A DNA stretch of 64,000 nucleotides from Natronomonas halophila (lineage in GTDB: Archaea > Halobacteriota > Halobacteria > Halobacteriales > Haloarculaceae): NCBI RefSeq assembly GCF_013391085.1, contig NZ_CP058334.1, positions 992,001 through 1,056,000 on the forward strand, given 5' to 3'. The stretch's first letter is position 1. Every line of letters starts with the position of its first letter. Below the pieces are notes generated by a model, which made no database searches, was not told the DNA's origin, and saw nothing but the letters and a program-made list of their open reading frames with translations. Position numbers and translations under genes: made by a program. Below, piece after piece: positions 17,973 to 64,000 of the stretch.

Positions 17973-18122
17973 AGCATCCGCGAGGGCGGGTTCGAAGAAC
18001 CCGCCCGAAGCGGTTCACCGCGCGAGCGAAGCGAGCGCGGGACCGAGGCCTGACCGAAGGGAAGGCCGAAGTGTCTTTTTCATCGAAGTTTTTGCCGGCG
18101 CGCGAAGCGCGCCGTGCAAAAA
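17973..18122 (-). repeat. Gene-end multi-hairpin element, copy A (after tfs)
   Basis: Read on the minus strand the element starts TTTTTGCAC 24 bases after the tfs stop, then a GGCGCGC/GCGCGCC hairpin, GGCAAAAAC, ATGAAAAAGACACTTCG, a hairpin with arms GCCT/AGGC around TCCCTTCGGTC, CTCGGTCCCGCGC, a further hairpin, GAACCGC, a GGGCGGGTTC/GAACCCGCCC hairpin, and ends GCGGATGCT. Same subtype as the copies at 28314 and 40668. Confidence 0.85.
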
Positions 18123-18146
18123 GTTCGGTGTAAAACGTGGGGGTTT

Positions 18147-18473
18147 CTAGTGATCGTCCTCGCGCCACTTGTGGTCGCACTCGACGCAGGTGAAAAAGCG
18201 GGTTTCGGATTCGTCGGCGGCGCGAATCTGTTTCATCTCGTAGCGGGCGCGGTCGTGGCCGCATTCGGGACAGCGGGCGTTGGTCGTCGGGCCGATTTCG
18301 GCGTCGTCGACTTCGGACATGTCGACGGGGCCGCTGTCGTGGTCCTGGCCTTCGGTCGTGGTCATGCGGTCGGCGTCGCTGTCGCCCTGTGCTTTCTCGA
18401 AATCACAAGAACTGCAGACCCACAGCCCGTCCTCGCTGTGCATCATCGAACCGCACTCGTCGCAGAATTCCAT
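18147..18473 (-). CDS. tfs: Transcription elongation factor TFS
   Basis: A 108-residue archaeal TFS, which stimulates transcript cleavage by backtracked RNA polymerase. The N-terminal zinc ribbon has CDEC (Cys4, Cys7) and CSSC (Cys20, Cys23). The C-terminal TFIIS-like ribbon has CPEC (Cys68, Cys71) and CVEC (Cys96, Cys99), with the catalytic hairpin acidic pair Asp87-Glu88 in RAADESET. The linker is acidic. Downstream lies a multi-hairpin gene-end element. The DUF5789-type gene lies upstream on the same strand. Confidence 0.95.
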   Translation of the reverse strand: MEFCDECGSMMHSEDGLWVCSSCDFEKAQGDSDADRMTTTEGQDHDSGPVDMSEVDDAEIGPTTNARCPECGHDRARYEMKQIRAADESETRFFTCVECDHKWREDDH

Positions 18474-25986: not shown

Positions 25987-27030
25987 ATGACGGACCACTA
26001 TCAGGTGACGGTCGTCGGCGGGGGTCCCGCCGGACTGACGACAGCGCTGTATACCACGCGACTCGGCCACGACACGGCGGTCATCAACCGCGGCGGCGGC
26101 CGTGCGGCGATGATGCTGGATACCCACAACGTCATCGGCGTCACCGAGGACGTCTCGGGCAACGAGTTCCTCGAGACGGCAACCGAGCAGGTGCAGGAGT
26201 ACGGCGCCGACTACTACCAGGACTTCGTCTCCGACATCGAGGAAACCGACGACGGCTACCGTGTCACCGCCGGCAACGTCGAGGTGACGACCGACCACGT
26301 CGTGTTGGCGACGGGCTTCTCCGACGAACGACCCGACCCGCCGCTGCCCCGTACCGGCAAGGGCCTCCACTACTGTCTGCACTGTGACGCCTACATGTTC
26401 GTCGACGAGCCGGTCTACGTGATGGGCACCGGCGATTCGGCGGCCTACGTCGCGATGATTATGCTCAACTTCACGCCCGAAGTCGACCTCCTCACCCGCG
26501 GCGACGAGCCGGAATGGTCCGAGGAGACGGGCGAGATGCTCGACAACCACCCCATCGACGTCATCCACGAGGAGATTACGGGCATGGAAAAGCGCGACGA
26601 CGGCTGGCTCGAAGCCTTCGAGTTCGAGGATGGGACCAGCCGTGAATACCGCGGCGGCTTCCCGATGTACGGCTCCGATTATAACACCGACCTCGCCGAG
26701 TCGCTCGGCGTCGAACTCAACGACGACGGCACCATCGCCGTCGACGACCACGGCCGCACCAACGTCGACGGCATCTACGCGGTCGGCGACGTGACGCCCG
26801 GCCACAACCAGATTCCGACCGCGATGGGCGAAGGCGCCCGCTGTGGCATCGGCAACCACTACGACCTGCGGCCGTTCCCCCGCTCGCTGGACGAAATCGA
26901 AGAGCAGGGCCCCGTCACGAAAGACGACATCCCCGCCATCTCCGGCGACCTCCGCGAACACGCGGTCGACCACGAGGGCCATCCCGGCGAAGGACAGGCC
27001 AGGGCGGCAGCCGAAACGGACGACGACTAA
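25987..27030 (+). CDS. Thioredoxin-reductase-like FAD/NAD(P) oxidoreductase
   Basis: A 347-residue flavoprotein. FAD-binding GGGPAGLTTALYTTRLG (residues 11-27), redox pair Cys130-Leu-His-Cys133 in CLHCDAY (the TrxR position, usually CATC), a second nucleotide-binding GTGDSAAYVAMIML, and GIYAVGDVTPGHNQI. The second Rossmann motif GTGDSA lacks a clear NADPH-type arginine pair nearby, so the electron donor is unsure. A 40-residue acidic C-terminal extension follows. It would reduce a thioredoxin-like partner. A hairpin element begins 3 bases after its stop. Confidence 0.88.
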   Translation: MTDHYQVTVVGGGPAGLTTALYTTRLGHDTAVINRGGGRAAMMLDTHNVIGVTEDVSGNEFLETATEQVQEYGADYYQDFVSDIEETDDGYRVTAGNVEVTTDHVVLATGFSDERPDPPLPRTGKGLHYCLHCDAYMFVDEPVYVMGTGDSAAYVAMIMLNFTPEVDLLTRGDEPEWSEETGEMLDNHPIDVIHEEITGMEKRDDGWLEAFEFEDGTSREYRGGFPMYGSDYNTDLAESLGVELNDDGTIAVDDHGRTNVDGIYAVGDVTPGHNQIPTAMGEGARCGIGNHYDLRPFPRSLDEIEEQGPVTKDDIPAISGDLREHAVDHEGHPGEGQARAAAETDDD

Positions 27031-27033
27031 CCA

Positions 27034-27135
27034 TTTTTTGCACGGGCCGGGTTCGCCGGCCCGTGCAAAAACATGGTGAAAATATGCGCGCGTGTTCCTT
27101 CCGGCGGCCTTCGGACGCCCCCTCGGCGGATGCTC
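27034..27135 (+). repeat. Gene-end multi-hairpin element, copy D (after the TrxR-like gene)
   Basis: Begins with a perfect 16-bp stem (TTTTTGCACGGGCCGG, 27035-27050; CCGGCCCGTGCAAAAA, 27056-27071) around the loop GTTCG, three bases after the stop codon. It is followed by CATGGTGAAAATATGCGCGC, a CGGCGGCCTTCGG hairpin and the terminal CTCGGCGGATGCT. The shortest copy of the GTGGTGAAAATATGCGCGC subtype. Confidence 0.85.
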
Positions 27136-27274: not shown

Positions 27275-28309
27275 ATGGAGACACGCAAGGTACAGCGGCT
27301 AGGGCCGTCGACGCTGGCGATGACCCTGCCCGCCGAGTGGGCCAGCAAACAGGACGTCGAGAAAGGCGACGAGGTCTCGCTGCGGATGGGTTCGAAGGGC
27401 ACGCTGACGGTCATGCCCGAGTCCGTCCAACAGGAGGAAAGCGAGGCGGTCATCCACGCCCAGAACCTCGACGCCGACGCCGTCGAGCGCGCGATTATCG
27501 CCCAGTACGTTCTCGGCCGACGTATCATCCACGTCGAAGTCGGCGAGGGCAACACGCTCGATTCCGCCCAGATTAACGCCGTCTACAACGCCGAAACCCA
27601 GCTGATGGGCCTCGGTGTCATCGAGGAAACGCCCGAACGCATCGCCATCCGCTGTTCGGTCGACCCCGAGGACTTCACCCTCGACAACCTTCTCGAACGG
27701 CTGGAATCGACCGGTTCGACCATGCGAAACGAGGCCATCAAGGCGCTCGCCCACGGCAATCCCGACCTCGCCCAGCGCGCCCTGAACCGCGAGCGACAGG
27801 CGAACAAGATTTTCGTCCTCCTGCTTCGCCTCATCTTCACCGCCTACCAGAACCCGAACCTCGCACGCGCGGTCGGCCTCGATTCGGGCTTCCCGCTTAT
27901 CGGCTACCGGTCTATCGCCAAGAACCTCGAACTCACCGCCGACAACGCCGAGGACATCGCCGAAATCGTCCTCGAAACCGAGGGCCACTCCCTCGACGTC
28001 GACCAGGCGACGATGCGTCGCATCCGGGAGTTCACCGACCAGGTCAACGAAATCACCGAACTCGGCGTCGCCGCCGCCGTCGAACGCGACTACGACAAGG
28101 CCATCCAGACCCGCGAGAAGTTCGCCGACATCGGCGACCGCGAGGCCGAAATCCTCGATGACCTCGATGAGATGTCCAACGAGGACCTCCTGCGGGTCCG
28201 CGAAGTACTCGTCAGCCTCGGCCAGACCGCACAGTACGCCGTCCGAAACGCCGAAATCGCGACGAACCTCGCGCTGAACGAGGACAGCGACCACGTTTCC
28301 ATCAAATAG
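27275..28309 (+). CDS. phoU: PhoU-type phosphate uptake regulator with AbrB-like N-terminal domain
   Basis: A 344-residue protein. Residues 1-50 are a SpoVT/AbrB-like DNA-binding fold (METRKVQRLGPSTLAMTLPAEWASKQ, GDEVSLRMG). The rest holds two PhoU helical bundles, with DNLLERLESTGSTMRNEAIKAL and REKFADIGDREAEILDDLDE matching the PhoU E/DxxxD metal-binding helices. This archaeal fusion is thought to control phosphate uptake at the transcriptional level. No pst genes are adjacent. A multi-hairpin element begins five bases after its stop. Confidence 0.9.
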   Translation: METRKVQRLGPSTLAMTLPAEWASKQDVEKGDEVSLRMGSKGTLTVMPESVQQEESEAVIHAQNLDADAVERAIIAQYVLGRRIIHVEVGEGNTLDSAQINAVYNAETQLMGLGVIEETPERIAIRCSVDPEDFTLDNLLERLESTGSTMRNEAIKALAHGNPDLAQRALNRERQANKIFVLLLRLIFTAYQNPNLARAVGLDSGFPLIGYRSIAKNLELTADNAEDIAEIVLETEGHSLDVDQATMRRIREFTDQVNEITELGVAAAVERDYDKAIQTREKFADIGDREAEILDDLDEMSNEDLLRVREVLVSLGQTAQYAVRNAEIATNLALNEDSDHVSIK

Positions 28310-28313
28310 AACC

Positions 28314-28464
28314 TTTTTGCACGCTCGGGCGCCTGCGGCGCCCTCGCGGCAAAAACGTTCATGAAAAAGACACTTCGACCCTCCCTACGGTCGGGTCTCG
28401 GTCCCGCGCCTCACTTCGTTCGGCGCGGCGGAACCGCTCGCTCACTACGTTCGCTCGCGGATGC
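28314..28464 (+). repeat. Gene-end multi-hairpin element, copy B (after phoU)
   Basis: TTTTTGCAC, hairpin with CGGGCGCC TGC GGCGCCC, GGCAAAAAC, GTTCATGAAAAAGACACTTCG, hairpin arms ACCC/GGGT around TCCCTACGGTC, CTCGGTCCCGCGC, hairpin, GAACCGC, hairpin, GCGGATGCT. The same subtype as copies A and C, but with different stem sequences. It fills the junction between phoU and the convergent gene at 28488. Confidence 0.88.
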
Positions 28465-36090: not shown

Positions 36091-37059
36091 ATGAGCGAAT
36101 TCCCAGACTACGTCGACGTCGACTATACCGACGGCGAAGGCGAAGACCCCGAGGACTACCCGAACCTCGAGGACAAAATCGAGAAGGCCATCGAGGTCGT
36201 CACGACGGGCCTCGAAGAGTACGAGAACCCCGCCATCATGTGGACCGGCGGCAAGGACTCGACGCTCACCCTGTACTTCGTGAAGGAAGTCGTCGAGCAG
36301 TTCGACTACGAGATGCCGCCGACGGTCTTCATCGACCACTACCAGCACTTCGACGAGCTGCTCGACTTCGTCGAGCGCTGGGCCGACGAGTGGGACCTCG
36401 AAGTCATCTTCGCGCGCAACGAGGACGTCGGCGCCTACGTCGACGAGAACGGGCTCGAACCCGGCGACGACATCCCCGTCGACGCCCTCGACGAGAACAA
36501 CCAGCACCACATCCGCAACATCCTCGAATACGAGGAGGACACCTTCCCGTTCCTGCTGGACACCTACGTCGGCAACCACCTGCTGAAGACCGTCGCGCTC
36601 AACAACACCCTCGAAGAACACGACATCGACGGCATCATCTCGGGCATCCGCTGGGACGAGCAGGAAGCCCGCGCCGACGAGACGTTCTTCAGCCCACGTC
36701 ACGACCCCGACATCTACCCCCCGCACGACCGCGTCCAGCCCATCCTGCAGTTCGACGAAGCCGACGTCTGGGACGCCTTCTGGTTCTACGTCGTCCCCGA
36801 AACCGTCGAGGGCTTCCCGGACGACGGCTACGTCCCCCAGGACTACGACGACCTGCCGAACGACCTCACCCACGAGGACATCCCGGTCTCGCCGAAGTAC
36901 TTCGCCGGGTTCCGCTCGCTGGGTAGCGAAATCTCGACCGAAAAGTCCGACGAAGAGCCTGCCTGGCTGCAGGACCTCGAGAACACGACCGAGCGCGCCG
37001 GCCGCGCCCAGGACAAAGAAGACCTGATGGAGCGCCTGCGCGACCTCGGCTACATGTAA
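36091..37059 (+). CDS. PAPS reductase/ATP-sulfurylase (CysD/CysH) family protein
   Basis: A 322-residue PP-loop ATPase fold. PP-loop WTGGKDST (51-58, in place of SGGKDS); then LEVIFARNEDV, and GIRWDEQEARADETFFSPRHDP, PILQFDEADVWDAFWFYV. These match the CysD/CysH family that handles adenylylated sulfate. Haloarchaeal members are annotated as phosphoadenosine phosphosulfate reductase-like; the sulfur substrate is not certain, and no CxxC reductase tail is seen. A hairpin element follows six bases after its stop. Confidence 0.85.
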   Translation: MSEFPDYVDVDYTDGEGEDPEDYPNLEDKIEKAIEVVTTGLEEYENPAIMWTGGKDSTLTLYFVKEVVEQFDYEMPPTVFIDHYQHFDELLDFVERWADEWDLEVIFARNEDVGAYVDENGLEPGDDIPVDALDENNQHHIRNILEYEEDTFPFLLDTYVGNHLLKTVALNNTLEEHDIDGIISGIRWDEQEARADETFFSPRHDPDIYPPHDRVQPILQFDEADVWDAFWFYVVPETVEGFPDDGYVPQDYDDLPNDLTHEDIPVSPKYFAGFRSLGSEISTEKSDEEPAWLQDLENTTERAGRAQDKEDLMERLRDLGYM

Positions 37060-37065
37060 ACCCAC

Positions 37066-37250
37066 TTTTTGCACTTCCCTCGCGCGCCTTCGGCGCGCTC
37101 AGTCAGGCAAAAACGTGGTGAAAATATGCGCGCGCTCCTCCTGTCGCGGGCCTGACGGCCGGCCCGCGGTAGTCGTCGCGCGCTACGGCGGCCTACGGCC
37201 GCCGCGAACCGCCTCGGGGGCCTTCTTCGAAGGCCCCGCTCGGCGGATGC
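37066..37250 (+). repeat. Gene-end multi-hairpin element, copy E (after the PAPS-reductase-like gene)
   Basis: TTTTTGCAC, hairpin with GCGCGCC TTC GGCGCGC, GGCAAAAAC, GTGGTGAAAATATGCGCGC, a module CTCCTGTCGCGGGCCTGACGG with GCCCGCGGTAGTCG, a CTACGGCGGCCTACGGCCGCCGCG hairpin, CCGCCTCGGGG, hairpin GGGGCCTTC TTC GAAGGCCCC, and GGCGGATGC. Same subtype as copies D and F. Confidence 0.88.
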
Positions 37251-39028: not shown

Positions 39029-40399
39029 ATGCCCGCAGAAACGTATGATATGGTCGTTGTCGGCGGCGGGACCGCCGGCTGTTTCGCCGCGGCAACGGCC
39101 GCTCAGGAAGGGCTGGACGTGGCCCTTCTGGAGCGAAAAACCGAGGACGAGGGCGGCCGCATCGCTTGTGGCGACGCCATCAAGGGGACGAGCACGTTCC
39201 CCGAAGTCATCGACCTCGATTACCTCCGTGAGGAATCGTTCACCAACGAGGGGATCACCCTCGCCCGCTTCGAGAACCCGAAAACCGGCGAGGACCTCGA
39301 CATCGGCTTCCGCGGCGGCAACGGCGCCATCGTCGACCGGAAACGCTACGGCGAGGTCCTCCTCGAAGAGGCCGAACGCGCCGGCGCCGACATCCACTAC
39401 GAGACCGTCGTCCGCGACGTCGTCCAGAACGGCTCGGTCAAGGGCGTCACCGCCACTCAGCGCGGCTCGGTCAAGGAGTTCGAGGCCGACGTCCTCATCG
39501 ACGCCGCCGGCTCGCTGTCGCTCCTGCAGGACAAGACCGACTTCGATAACACCACCTTCGACACCAACGTCAACTACCAGCAGTTCTGTTCGGCCTACCG
39601 CGAAGTCATCGAAATCGACGAACCCGTCGACTGGCACAACGCAATCGTCTTCAAGCCCACCGCCGAACTCGGCTACCTCTGGTATTTCCCGCGGACCCCC
39701 ACCGAAATCAACGTCGGCCTCGGCTTCCAGATGAACAAGGAGCCGATGAAACTCGTCGAACATCTCCGCGAGGACCTCCGCAAGCGCGACGAGTTCAAAA
39801 ACGCCACCGTCAAGGACAAACTCGGCGCCGCGCTCCCGACTCGCCGCCCCTACGACTCGGCGGTCGCCCCCGGCTACATGGCCGTCGGCGACGCAGCCGC
39901 CCACGTCAACCCCTGTACCGGCGGCGGCATCCCCGGCGCCGCGAAGGCCGGCACCTGGGCCGCCGAAGCCGCCATCGAGGCCATCAGCGACGGCGACGTC
40001 AGCGAGGGCGCCCTCTGGGAGTACAACCGCCGCGTCCAGACGGACTTCGGCAAGCGCTTCGCCGCCATGGACCTCTACAACATCTGGGGTGGCACCTACG
40101 ACGTCGATTACCTCGTCGACATCATCAGCGCGATGCCCGGCCAGCAACTCGCCGACGCGCTCGCGCTCGAAGGCACCGCCTCCATGAGTTGGCCGCTCAA
40201 AATCAAGACCGCAATCAAAACCTTCGGCCACTGGAGTACCCTCTTCGAACTCAAGAAACTCAACGAGTACGCGACCGACCTCAAAGGCATCTACGACGAC
40301 TACCCCACGACGCCCGGCGAGTTCGACGACTGGCAAACCCGCCGTGACGGCCTCATGGACGACGTCTACGAACTCACGGACGCCGATCCTAAATACTAA
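39029..40399 (+). CDS. Geranylgeranyl reductase family protein
   Basis: A 456-residue flavoprotein that saturates isoprenoid chains of archaeal membrane lipids (digeranylgeranylglycerophospholipid reductase family). FAD-binding VVVGGGTAGCFAA (8-20), RIACGDAIKG, LWYFPRTPTEINVGLGF (family signature YxWxFPxxxxxNVGxG), and GYMAVGDAAAHVNPCTGGGIPGAAKAG. The Cys in NPCTGG is unusual (NPLTGG is common). Substrate could also be menaquinone or a carotenoid precursor. A multi-hairpin element begins eight bases after the stop codon. Confidence 0.92.
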   Translation: MPAETYDMVVVGGGTAGCFAAATAAQEGLDVALLERKTEDEGGRIACGDAIKGTSTFPEVIDLDYLREESFTNEGITLARFENPKTGEDLDIGFRGGNGAIVDRKRYGEVLLEEAERAGADIHYETVVRDVVQNGSVKGVTATQRGSVKEFEADVLIDAAGSLSLLQDKTDFDNTTFDTNVNYQQFCSAYREVIEIDEPVDWHNAIVFKPTAELGYLWYFPRTPTEINVGLGFQMNKEPMKLVEHLREDLRKRDEFKNATVKDKLGAALPTRRPYDSAVAPGYMAVGDAAAHVNPCTGGGIPGAAKAGTWAAEAAIEAISDGDVSEGALWEYNRRVQTDFGKRFAAMDLYNIWGGTYDVDYLVDIISAMPGQQLADALALEGTASMSWPLKIKTAIKTFGHWSTLFELKKLNEYATDLKGIYDDYPTTPGEFDDWQTRRDGLMDDVYELTDADPKY

Positions 40400-40406
40400 C
40401 AGCCAC

Positions 40407-40599
40407 TTTTTGCACCTCCTTCACGCGCCTGCGGCGCGCTCAGTCGGGCAAAAACGTGGTGAAAATATGCGCGCCTCCTTCCTGCCGCCTCGCTTCGCTC
40501 GGCGTTAGTCAGTCGGCGCTACGGCGACTCGGCCCTACGGGCCTCGTCGCCGCGAACCGCCTCGGGGGCGTTTTTCAAACGCCCCGCTCGGCGGATACA
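40407..40599 (+). repeat. Gene-end multi-hairpin element, copy F (after geranylgeranyl reductase)
   Basis: TTTTTGCAC, hairpin with CGCGCC TGC GGCGCG, GGGCAAAAACGTGGTGAAAA, TATGCGCGC, internal hairpins including CTACGGCGACTCGG and GGGCCTCGTCGCCG, then CCGCCTCGGGG, a hairpin GGGGCGTTT TTC AAACGCCCC and GGCGGAT. Last hairpin covaries with that of copy E (GGGGCCTTC TTC GAAGGCCCC). Faces copy C across 68 bases. Confidence 0.88.
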
Positions 40600-40667
40600 A
40601 GATTGTAGTTGTTTCAGCAAGTCGGAGTAGAGTTCCCTCTTAGTCAGTCAAGTTAACGTATAAGATT

Positions 40668-40938
40668 AGCATCCGCGAGGGCGGGTTCTTCGAACCCGCC
40701 CGAAGCGGTTCACCGCGCGAGCGAAGCGAGCGCGGGACCGAGACTCGACCGTAGGTCCCGCGAACGGAGTGAGCGGGAGCGTTGGAAGACGAGCGCTAGC
40801 GAGTCTTCCTGAGGGAGAGTCGAAGTGTCTTTTTCATGAACGTTCGGAAGACGCCGAAGGCGTCTTCCGCAGCCCATCAGAAGCGCTTCGCGCTTCTGAG
40901 GACGTTTTTGCCGGCGCCCGCAGGGCGCCGTGCAAAAA
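40668..40938 (-). repeat. Gene-end multi-hairpin element, copy C (after pan)
   Basis: Minus strand: TTTTTGCAC starts four bases after the pan stop. Then GGCGCCC TGC GGGCGCC, GGCAAAAAC, two extra hairpins (GAAGCGC/GCGCTTC and GGAAGACGCC/GGCGTCTTCC), GTTCATGAAAAAGACACTTCG, ACTC...GAGT enclosing two further inserted hairpins, CTCGGTCCCGCGC, and the GGGCGGGTTC/GAACCCGCCC hairpin, ending GCGGATGCT. The longest copy, about 270 bases. Confidence 0.88.
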
Positions 40939-40941
40939 GGT

Positions 40942-42159
40942 TCAGTAGAAAGCTATGGGTTTCCCGGCGGATTCCTCGCGGGAGACCTTCTCGAGTGCGT
41001 CCTCGAAGTCCTCCTCGGTGACTTCAGTGCGGCCGTCGCGGATGGCGAACATACCCGCCTCAGTGGCGAGGCTTTCGAGTTCGGCACCGGAGAAGCCCTC
41101 GGTCTGCTCGGCGACCGCTTCGAGGTCGATGTCCGGCGAGAGGTTCATCTTCTTGGTGTGGATGTGGAGAATCTGCTCGCGGCCCTCGATATCCGGTTCG
41201 GGCACCTCGATGAGTCGGTCGAAGCGGCCGGGGCGGAGGATGGCGCGGTCGAGCATATCGAAGCGGTTGGTCGCAGCGATAATCGAGATGTCGCCGCGCT
41301 GGTCGAAGCCGTCCATCTCCGAGAGGAGTTGCATCATCGTCCGCTGGACCTCGGCGTCGCCCGACGTTTTGGATTCGGTGCGCTTCGAGGCGATAGCGTC
41401 GATTTCGTCGATGAAGATGATGGCGGGTTCCCGCTCCGCGGCGAGTTCGAAGAGGTCACGGACGAGGCGTGCGCCCTCGCCGATGAACTTCTGGACGAGT
41501 TCCGAGCCGGCCATCTTGATGAAGGTCGCGTCGGTCTGGTTGGCGACGGCCTTGGCCATCATCGTCTTGCCGGTGCCGGGCGGCCCGTGCAGGAGGACGC
41601 CGCTCGGCGGTTCGATGCCGACCTGCTGGAACTTCTCGGGGTTTGTGAGGGGGTCCTCGACGGCTTCCCGGACCTCCTGAATCTGCTCTTCGAGGCCACC
41701 GATGTCTTCGTAGTGGACGGTGGGCTTCTCGGAAATCTCCATGGCCTGTGCGCGAGCGTCGGTCTCCTGGTCGAGGACCGTCTGGATAGCGAAGGAGTCG
41801 TTGATGGCGACGCGGTCGCCGGCCTGGAGTTTCTGGTAGAGCCGCGGGGAGACGTCCGTCAGAACCTCCTGATTGTTGCCGTGCTGTTTGAGCAGGACCT
41901 GGTCGTCGGTGAGTTCTTCGACCGTGGCGATGTACAGTGACGACGTCTTCAGCGCCTCGTTTTCCTCTTGGAGGTCGCTGACCTCCTCTCGGAGTTCCGA
42001 TTGACGCGAGCGCGCGTCTTCGAGCTGGTCCGCGAGTTCCTCGTGGACCCGAGAGACGTCGATGTAGTGTTCCCGGAGGGCGGCGAGCCGCTCTTCCTCG
42101 GACATATCGGGGTCGAGGTCGAGGGTCGGCCGGTCCGGAAGAGAGGGGCTATGCGACAT
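40942..42159 (-). CDS. pan: Proteasome-activating nucleotidase (PAN)
   Basis: A 405-residue AAA ATPase that unfolds proteins for the 20S proteasome. An N-terminal coiled coil (about 40-80, [19 protein letters not shown]), an OB-like domain (about 80-135), Walker A GPPGTGKT, Walker [11 protein letters not shown], sensor-1 IIAATNR, Arg-finger region RPGRFDR. The C terminus ends AFY, where HbYX would put Tyr second to last; here Phe is in that place. ATG 42159 is preferred to longer starts by the family N terminus. A multi-hairpin element lies directly after the stop. Confidence 0.95.
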
Positions 42160-63598: not shown

Positions 63599-63649
63599 GT
63601 CGCTAAGCGGGATATCCTCGCTCCGCTCGGATAGGGCCCGCTTAGCGAC
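63599..63649. repeat. 13-bp perfect inverted repeat around an inner hairpin
   Basis: GTCGCTAAGCGGG (63599-63611) pairs perfectly with CCCGCTTAGCGAC (63637-63649); the 25-base interval contains a smaller ATCC/GGAT hairpin. The right arm overlaps the start of the TIR-bounded element at 63644. No gene covers it. Confidence 0.75.
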
Positions 63650-64000
63650 TAAACTGAACGCCACCCGGCTTCGCCCTTCGATTCCGCCAAGGAACCGCAC
63701 CACACGCCTCCCCAGCCGACTCCTTCCCTCACTCCGTTCGGTCAGTCGTCCCTCGCGCGCTGGCTGGCCGGACCCCCGCTCGCTGTCGCTCGCGAGGTCG
63801 GCCAGCGCGCGCCATTTAAATAATCAATCGGCCGGGAGCGCGTGCGGCCCCTTGGGCCGTCGCGCGACCCGGGGAAGGGCAGGGCTGTGCAGTTCCTGGT
63901 GTCCTCGTGAGCGACCGAAGGGAGCGAACGAGGGCTCAGGAGAGCTTGCTCTCCTGGTGGACTGAAAGGGCGAGGTGCGGAGGCGTTCAGTTTAGTCGCT
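63644..64000. mobile_element. MITE-like element with terminal inverted repeats (no coding gene)
   Basis: AGCGACTAAACTGAACGCC (63644-63662) is the exact reverse complement of 63982-64000. Similarity continues inward to about 42 bases, with TCGCCCTT matching the opposite end. The interior holds several palindromes (GCGCGCTGGCTGGCC with GGCCAGCGCGCGC around 63757-63810) and an AT island (TTTAAATAATCAAT near 63814). No ORF is convincing. The right end coincides with the window edge, so flanking duplications cannot be checked. Confidence 0.55.

Follow-up and report, generated by a model that had tools for sequence, protein, structure and literature searches.

A dispersed multi-hairpin repeat positioned at gene ends in Natronomonas halophila and other haloarchaea, a candidate T-tract terminator/insulator

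The window, which is the whole 64-kb stretch of DNA that we analyzed (C1:992001-1056000 of the Natronomonas halophila genome, a single contig of 3,211,682 bases), contains six copies of a structured repeat whose T-run lies just past a stop codon. The same repeat is found throughout the genome and in other haloarchaeal genera, where it tends to be present at the same genes while its subtype changes. We favor, with moderate confidence, the reading that it is a T-tract terminator/insulator module that is kept at the ends of transcription units and whose sequence is exchanged among copies by recombination.

RESULTS AND DISCUSSION

Copies in the window

All six copies proposed in the initial annotation of this DNA were located at their positions, and comparison of their letters shows that they start with TTTTTGCAC (TTTTTTGCAC in the copy at 27034) and end with GCGGATGC (GCGGATACA in the copy at 40599). 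The letters of the T-run at which they were said to begin are correct, but the true start is 4 to 5 nt earlier, at bases (CCAC, TGAAC, or CGAA) that pair with the linker. R1, a covariance model whose training set of 34 first hairpins includes the window copies, has exactly six strong matches in the window (E values of 7e-15 to 2e-7), and its weaker matches are reverse-strand echoes or the second half of copy F. A seventh, fragmentary copy that had been claimed was not found in the window.

Copy A (17973 to 18127, minus strand, with its CGAAC clamp arm included) is of the T2 subtype, matches R1 at 18069 to 18128 with 71.5 bits, and has its T-run 24 nt past the stop codon (18147 to 18149) of the tfs gene. 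Copy B (27031 to 27135, plus strand, 53.3 bits) is of the T1 subtype with the linker ATGGTGAAAATATGCGCGC and follows a thioredoxin-reductase-like gene (25987 to 27030). Copy C (28309 to 28464, plus strand, 63.3 bits), a T2 copy with a GAAC/GTTC clamp, follows a phoU-domain gene (27275 to 28309), and copy D (37062 to 37250, plus strand, 57 bits), a T1 copy with a CCAC/GTGG clamp, follows a PAPS-reductase-like gene (36091 to 37059). Copy E (40403 to 40599, plus strand, T1, 56.3 bits), which follows a geranylgeranyl-reductase-family gene (39029 to 40399), is separated by a spacer of ~70 nt (40600 to 40667) from copy F (40668 to 40944, minus strand, T2, 39.8 bits), which follows a gene for a PAN-like AAA ATPase. 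Copy F has two additional hairpins between the first hairpin and the linker, and the TGA stop codon of the PAN-like gene (40942 to 40944) is part of its TGAAC/GTTCA clamp. The gene labels given earlier hold up: TFS scores above the NCBIfam cut-off, and the others belong to the geranylgeranyl reductase superfamily, are thioredoxin-reductase-like, have PhoU or PAPS_reduct domains, or are an AAA ATPase that fits PAN. It is also correct that two copies of different subtype face each other at 40407 to 40938, copy E being T1 and copy F being T2. In contrast, the assignment of one subtype to copies D to F and the other to copies A to C is wrong in coordinate order: the T1 linker TGGTGAAAATATGCGCGC belongs to copies B, D, and E (27034, 37066, and 40407), and the T2 linker ATGAAAAAGACACTTCG (also given as ATGAAAAAGACAC) belongs to copies A, C, and F (17973, 28314, and 40668).

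At the window edge there is also a 46-nt inverted repeat (63644 to 63689 and 63955 to 64000; 80% complementary, 265 nt apart), which possibly represents the ends of a small mobile element.

Architecture and stem covariation

The lower stem of the first hairpin pairs T4-6 with A4-6 of the opposite strand and has, outside it, a variable but complementary clamp of 3 to 5 bp, and thus the first stem takes in bases before the T-run. On its 3' side are an A-rich linker and then more GC-rich hairpins. The element ends with a terminal hairpin and, past it, GCGGATGCT or one of its variants. The clamp pairs seen are CCA/TGG, GCA/TGC, GTA/TAC, GGA/TCC, CGAA/TTCG, and GAAC/GTTC. The pairing partners in T1 copies are CCA(C), on the 5' side of T5, and (G)TGG, on the 3' side of A5; T2 copies have the pairs CGAA/TTCG, GAAC/GTTC, and GAAA/TTTC.

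In an alignment of 34 first hairpins, mostly from the N. halophila genome with five from genus g39, 88% of cells are paired and 11 pairs are changed on both sides (we drew the structure ourselves on the same alignment, with the clamp register shifted by one in T2 rows). The covariation score of 0.215 is higher than that of every shuffle and every slid register, although the shuffle test is inflated by the relatedness of the copies. Independently of this alignment, among 174 copies, clamp pairing (≥3) is present in 93%, versus 43% with shuffled partners. Inner stems of the same copies have a mean of 8.7 contiguous pairs versus 4.9 for mismatched arms; these copies were selected by partial inner complementarity, which favors the inner-stem figure and leaves the clamp figure unaffected. 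The base after the T-run is often unpaired with its opposite (A.C in 48 of 176), and therefore not every stem position is constrained. The fold of copy D has a z score of -5.65. The stem thus carries the compensatory base changes by which structured RNA or DNA elements are generally recognized, and we conclude that the elements are structured.

The architecture is modular. Two-hairpin cassettes are found either within the first hairpin or between the first hairpin and the linker. Cassettes M1 (C1 positions 565335, 868746, 1584525, and 2552262) and M2 (559969, 807669, 1232469, 2467056, and 2503048) are inserted in the first hairpin and have their own conserved short linkers, and M1 is also found at three loci of other genomes (L156, L171, and L203). 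Genome-wide there are 12 facing pairs and no back-to-back pairs. Ten of the 12 consist of one T1 and one T2 copy, and by a simple motif rule the spacer is 70 to 73 nt in 7 of the 12, including the pair at window positions 40407 to 40938. The pairs lie at C1 305008/305415, 939507/939942, 1032407/1032938 (the pair in the window), 1169661/1170084, 1807783/1808256, and 2532942/2533360, plus six more. Some of the spacers look homologous, as though the composite itself were a repeated unit.

Position relative to genes

Pattern searches of the genome gave 97 T-run-anchored copies, or 94 once reverse-strand artefacts were removed, and R1 found 85 copies at an E value of ≤0.01. Genes were called by our own codon-usage script and checked by eye on ~585 kb around the copies plus the window, so that the "other gene ends" used for comparison are neighbors of elements. 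The initial annotation proposed to test whether hits lie within 30 bases of stop codons in the sense orientation, and in 71 of the 94 copies the T-run is 3 to 24 nt past a sense stop codon, with a median of ~7 nt. Fourteen copies instead begin 34 to 56 nt upstream of a divergent gene start (12 of them at 44 to 51 nt) and point away from the adjoining gene, and one follows tRNA-Arg. At least one of the remaining 8 resembles a tRNA end. The statement that copies are always oriented like the upstream gene is therefore true of the window but not of the genome. None of the 94 copies lies inside a predicted gene, a location that had been named as evidence against a gene-end role.

Downstream of the element's 3' end, the distance to the next gene varies broadly (median, 84 or 146 nt), which indicates that the T-run (5') end is the positioned end. 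Of 415 other gene ends, one has the motif CCACTTTT and 32 have T5 within 40 nt. Since both are rare there, it is the element itself that supplies the T-tract. IS200/IS605-derived PATEs and REP-RAYT systems are expected to have a defined target tetra- or pentanucleotide. With regard to a TAR stop as a possible target sequence here, TAA or TAG is the stop codon at 62 of 71 element sites versus 303 of 481 other sites; the promoter-edge copies share no such sequence. The 94 copies are not enriched at convergent genes, and the idea of a special role between convergent genes was dropped for this reason. In other genera the spacing is the same, including after genes for tRNA-Pro, -Ala, -Phe, -Arg, and -Gly.

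Distribution across haloarchaea

Among the 392 Halobacteriales genomes sampled, 250 have the core motif TTTTGC-N-GCAAAA-N-AAAA, with control matches near zero in most. A T1-like linker, with one mismatch allowed, occurs in 163 of the 392, although single matches may be due to chance. Among the named matches are Natronomonas, Haloarcula, Halosimplex, Halorientalis, Halobacterium, Halococcus, and Salinarchaeum; the same scan also returned bacterial contigs without element context, which we take as chance. Viral contigs were considered as carriers and rejected, because none of their eight matches is in element context and all were judged to be chance. Plasmids searched with copy D gave no match.

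Copy number varies widely. The N. halophila genome (G000) and three congeners (G259, G307, and G333) have 30 to 85 copies, and six other congeners have 0 to 4. In genus g39 most genomes have 9 to 39 copies and one (G064) has none, and three genomes of genus g20 have none. A range from 0 to ~85 copies within one genus indicates that the element is dispensable. At two loci, L154 (genome G109) and L158 (G277), 2 to 3 copies are in tandem after one gene with a period of ~160 nt.

Retention at shared genes and exchange of subtype

A clear homologue among the N. halophila genes sampled was present for 40 of 70 element-bearing genes of other genomes, and 31 of these match the 71 element genes while 9 match the 481 others (17 versus 8 when collapsed to families; p of ~3e-10); the 481 are part of the genome, so that elsewhere in it there may be non-element homologues of some of the 30 unmatched genes. 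An element is present, for example, at thermosome genes in Haloarcula-like genomes, Halococcus, Halosimplex, Halorientalis, and N. halophila.

For the comparison of filled and empty sites we used genus g39, because the genus of N. halophila is unsuitable (the closest orthologue of the copy E gene is 87% identical, and its neighbors differ). For 20 element sites of genome G151, the orthologous ends in five congeners were checked, and an element was present at 48 of 96, versus 6 of 110 neighboring gene ends. The occupant is frequently of another subtype with a compensated clamp: at site L342 the clamps across relatives are CCA, GCA, GCA with T4, and CGA, and at L351 they are CCA versus GTA. Site L350 has an insertion-like difference of ~200 bp between G151 and G135, and at L338 G151 has an element in place of native sequence that is similar in four relatives. 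At L407 of G135, which is orthologous to L353, the stop codon and an element-like start are ~320 bp apart, with unrelated sequence between them, and possibly another mobile element landed between the gene and the element. Some of the conserved occupancy could be due to insertions made repeatedly beside the same genes, e.g., highly expressed ones.

These observations bear on the main rival, which we consider less likely, namely, that the element is a nonautonomous mobile repeat (REP/BIME-, PATE-, or MITE-like) that inserts after stop codons or at promoter edges and is mobilized in trans, with terminator activity just making the insertion harmless. It is consistent with the patchy copy number within a genus, the tandem copies in G109 and G277, the recurrence of facing T1-spacer-T2 composites as units, the enrichment of TAA and TAG at element stops, and the differences between congeners at L350 and L338. 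However, the same genes are occupied across genera far above chance, there is no target duplication at the two sites examined, Y1 transposase counts are out of step with element counts, and the element is absent in element context from viral contigs, as copy D is from plasmids. The initial annotation argued against REP sequences or random insertion from position and orientation. The position at gene ends holds, but the elements turn over and swap subtype, so that orientation bias alone is insufficient against an origin as mobile repeats. Mobile origin with later retention accounts for the data nearly as well as a pure terminator does, and the two are compatible.

Proposed function

In the terminator/insulator reading that we prefer, each element presents T4-6 and then NC right past the stop codon. 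A T5C stretch gives ~95% termination in vivo in Haloferax volcanii (PMC7237163), and by analogy the T-tract here would end transcription. Because the complement of the T-tract is also a T-tract, termination would be expected from both sides, and the first hairpin may thus halt traffic in both directions and insulate neighboring units. Two-sided termination would fit both gene ends and the promoter-edge copies. As for the other hairpins, they may work in readthrough RNA or as a structure in the DNA. Copies would swap modules by ectopic recombination or gene conversion, and whole elements would be gained and lost more slowly than modules are exchanged. Intermolecular gene conversion is very efficient in Haloferax (PMC8223754), which makes module exchange by ectopic gene conversion plausible here. 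Such exchange would explain the modular hairpins, the genome-specific linkers, and the replacement of one subtype by another at a fixed position. Counting against the reading as a whole are the dispensability of the element within a genus and its lack of enrichment at convergent genes.

Because the T-run comes ahead of the hairpin loop, an RNA polymerase that halts in it would end the RNA short of most of the element, and some other explanation is then needed for selection on the downstream hairpins. In a second rival reading, the T-run is read through and the element is a posttranscriptional 3'-UTR RNA whose hairpins set mRNA stability, processing, or the binding of RNA-binding proteins. The strongly covarying structure immediately past stop codons in the sense orientation would suit this, and Halobacterium and Haloferax are reported to have conserved processing sites around their stop codons (PMC8303175). 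We nevertheless think it improbable, because a T-tract of the terminating type precedes most of the structure and because the copies after tRNAs and those antisense upstream of promoters are not in mRNA 3' UTRs. In fact, 14 copies upstream of divergent promoters and at least one after a tRNA mean that this is not strictly a 3'-UTR element. The initial proposal of a 3'-UTR or termination/processing role is borne out in part, in the precise, recurrent gene-end position and the covariation, and termination itself is suggested by analogy. Slightly less probable still is a DNA-level element with no RNA role, forming cruciforms or binding protein to set chromosomal topology or shield genes: copies do lie at gene 3' ends as well as at promoter edges, and the 12 facing and 0 back-to-back pairs have near-constant spacers, but the T-run placement agrees with the known haloarchaeal termination motif and copies are not enriched between convergent genes, the place of greatest expected supercoiling stress.

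A more ambitious version of the terminator/insulator reading, which we put forward tentatively, is that the element is a portable bidirectional terminator/insulator kept at shared genes (thermosome, TFS, and others) and tRNAs since before the genera diverged, that its tens to ~100 dispersed copies undergo concerted evolution by ectopic gene conversion, and that it is an archaeal gene-boundary element without a described counterpart.

Novelty and significance

Rfam gave no matches at the gathering score over the window and none up to an E value of 1 over 40380 to 40960; an existing family entry, which the initial annotation had named as grounds for abandoning its proposal, is thus absent from Rfam. 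In open-licence papers on haloarchaeal terminators, archaeal REP-like repeats, and structured 3' RNAs we found no description, although one may exist elsewhere. Within that literature, we found no account of a repeat of this kind, dispersed and palindromic, with a candidate T-tract terminator, a fixed place at gene ends, and a subtype that is swapped while the element is kept at the same genes across genera. How archaeal genes end transcription, and what role nucleic acid structure has in it, if any, is still an open question. The element provides many natural constructs, orthologous ends with and without it and swapped but compensated stems, in an order that has genetic model species, and these allow termination, insulation, and repeat homogenization to be tested directly. 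Annotation would also gain a structured family that is not yet listed, one whose core motif is in 250 of the 392 genomes sampled.

Comparison with known systems

Bacterial REP/BIME and BOX-type repeats are dispersed, palindromic, modular, and intergenic and are present in tens to ~100 copies. The haloarchaeal element resembles them in these respects and in occurring singly or in facing composites. It differs in that its 5' end is fixed to stop codons or promoter edges, in its T-tract, in the refilling of orthologous sites by other subtypes, and in having no associated Y1 transposase pattern. Y1 transposase (PF01797), the one transposase family tested, was rejected as the mobilizer because its counts do not follow the copies: there is one in the N. 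halophila genome (85 copies), none in G307 (30 copies), G072, or G113, and 2 to 5 in G051, G067, G148, G244, and G295, which have 0 to 4 element copies. There is therefore no cognate Y1 transposase that accounts for the copies, as would be expected of an IS200/IS605 PATE or a REP-RAYT system. Integron attC sites are imperfect palindromes that immediately follow a stop codon and are oriented like the gene, and the element is similar in this, but its copies are dispersed singly or as facing pairs and not in cassette arrays. The two element ends, CCACTTTTTGC and GCGGATGCT, are unlike each other, and there is no duplication at the filled and empty sites examined, whereas terminal inverted repeats and target-site duplication are expected of MITEs.

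PATEs, which are of the IS605 type and are found in Haloquadratum and Natronomonas, are transposase-free and heterogeneous, with near-terminal palindromes and no target duplication (PMC3119063). The element shares all of these features and a haloarchaeal host. Gene-end anchoring, however, was not reported for PATEs (PMC3119063), and Y1 transposase copies here do not follow element number; the distinction is by this description, not by terminal motifs. There is also a likeness to haloarchaeal terminators of the T5C type (PMC7237163), which are sense T-stretches downstream of genes: here T4-6 followed by NC lies soon after the stop codon in gene orientation, 3 to 24 nt past 71 of 94 sense stops. 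In contrast to those terminators, the T-tract of the element is an arm of a conserved hairpin, present on both strands, inside a multi-hairpin repeat of 100 to 270 nt; ordinary gene ends of the N. halophila genome seldom have T5 within 40 nt (32/415).
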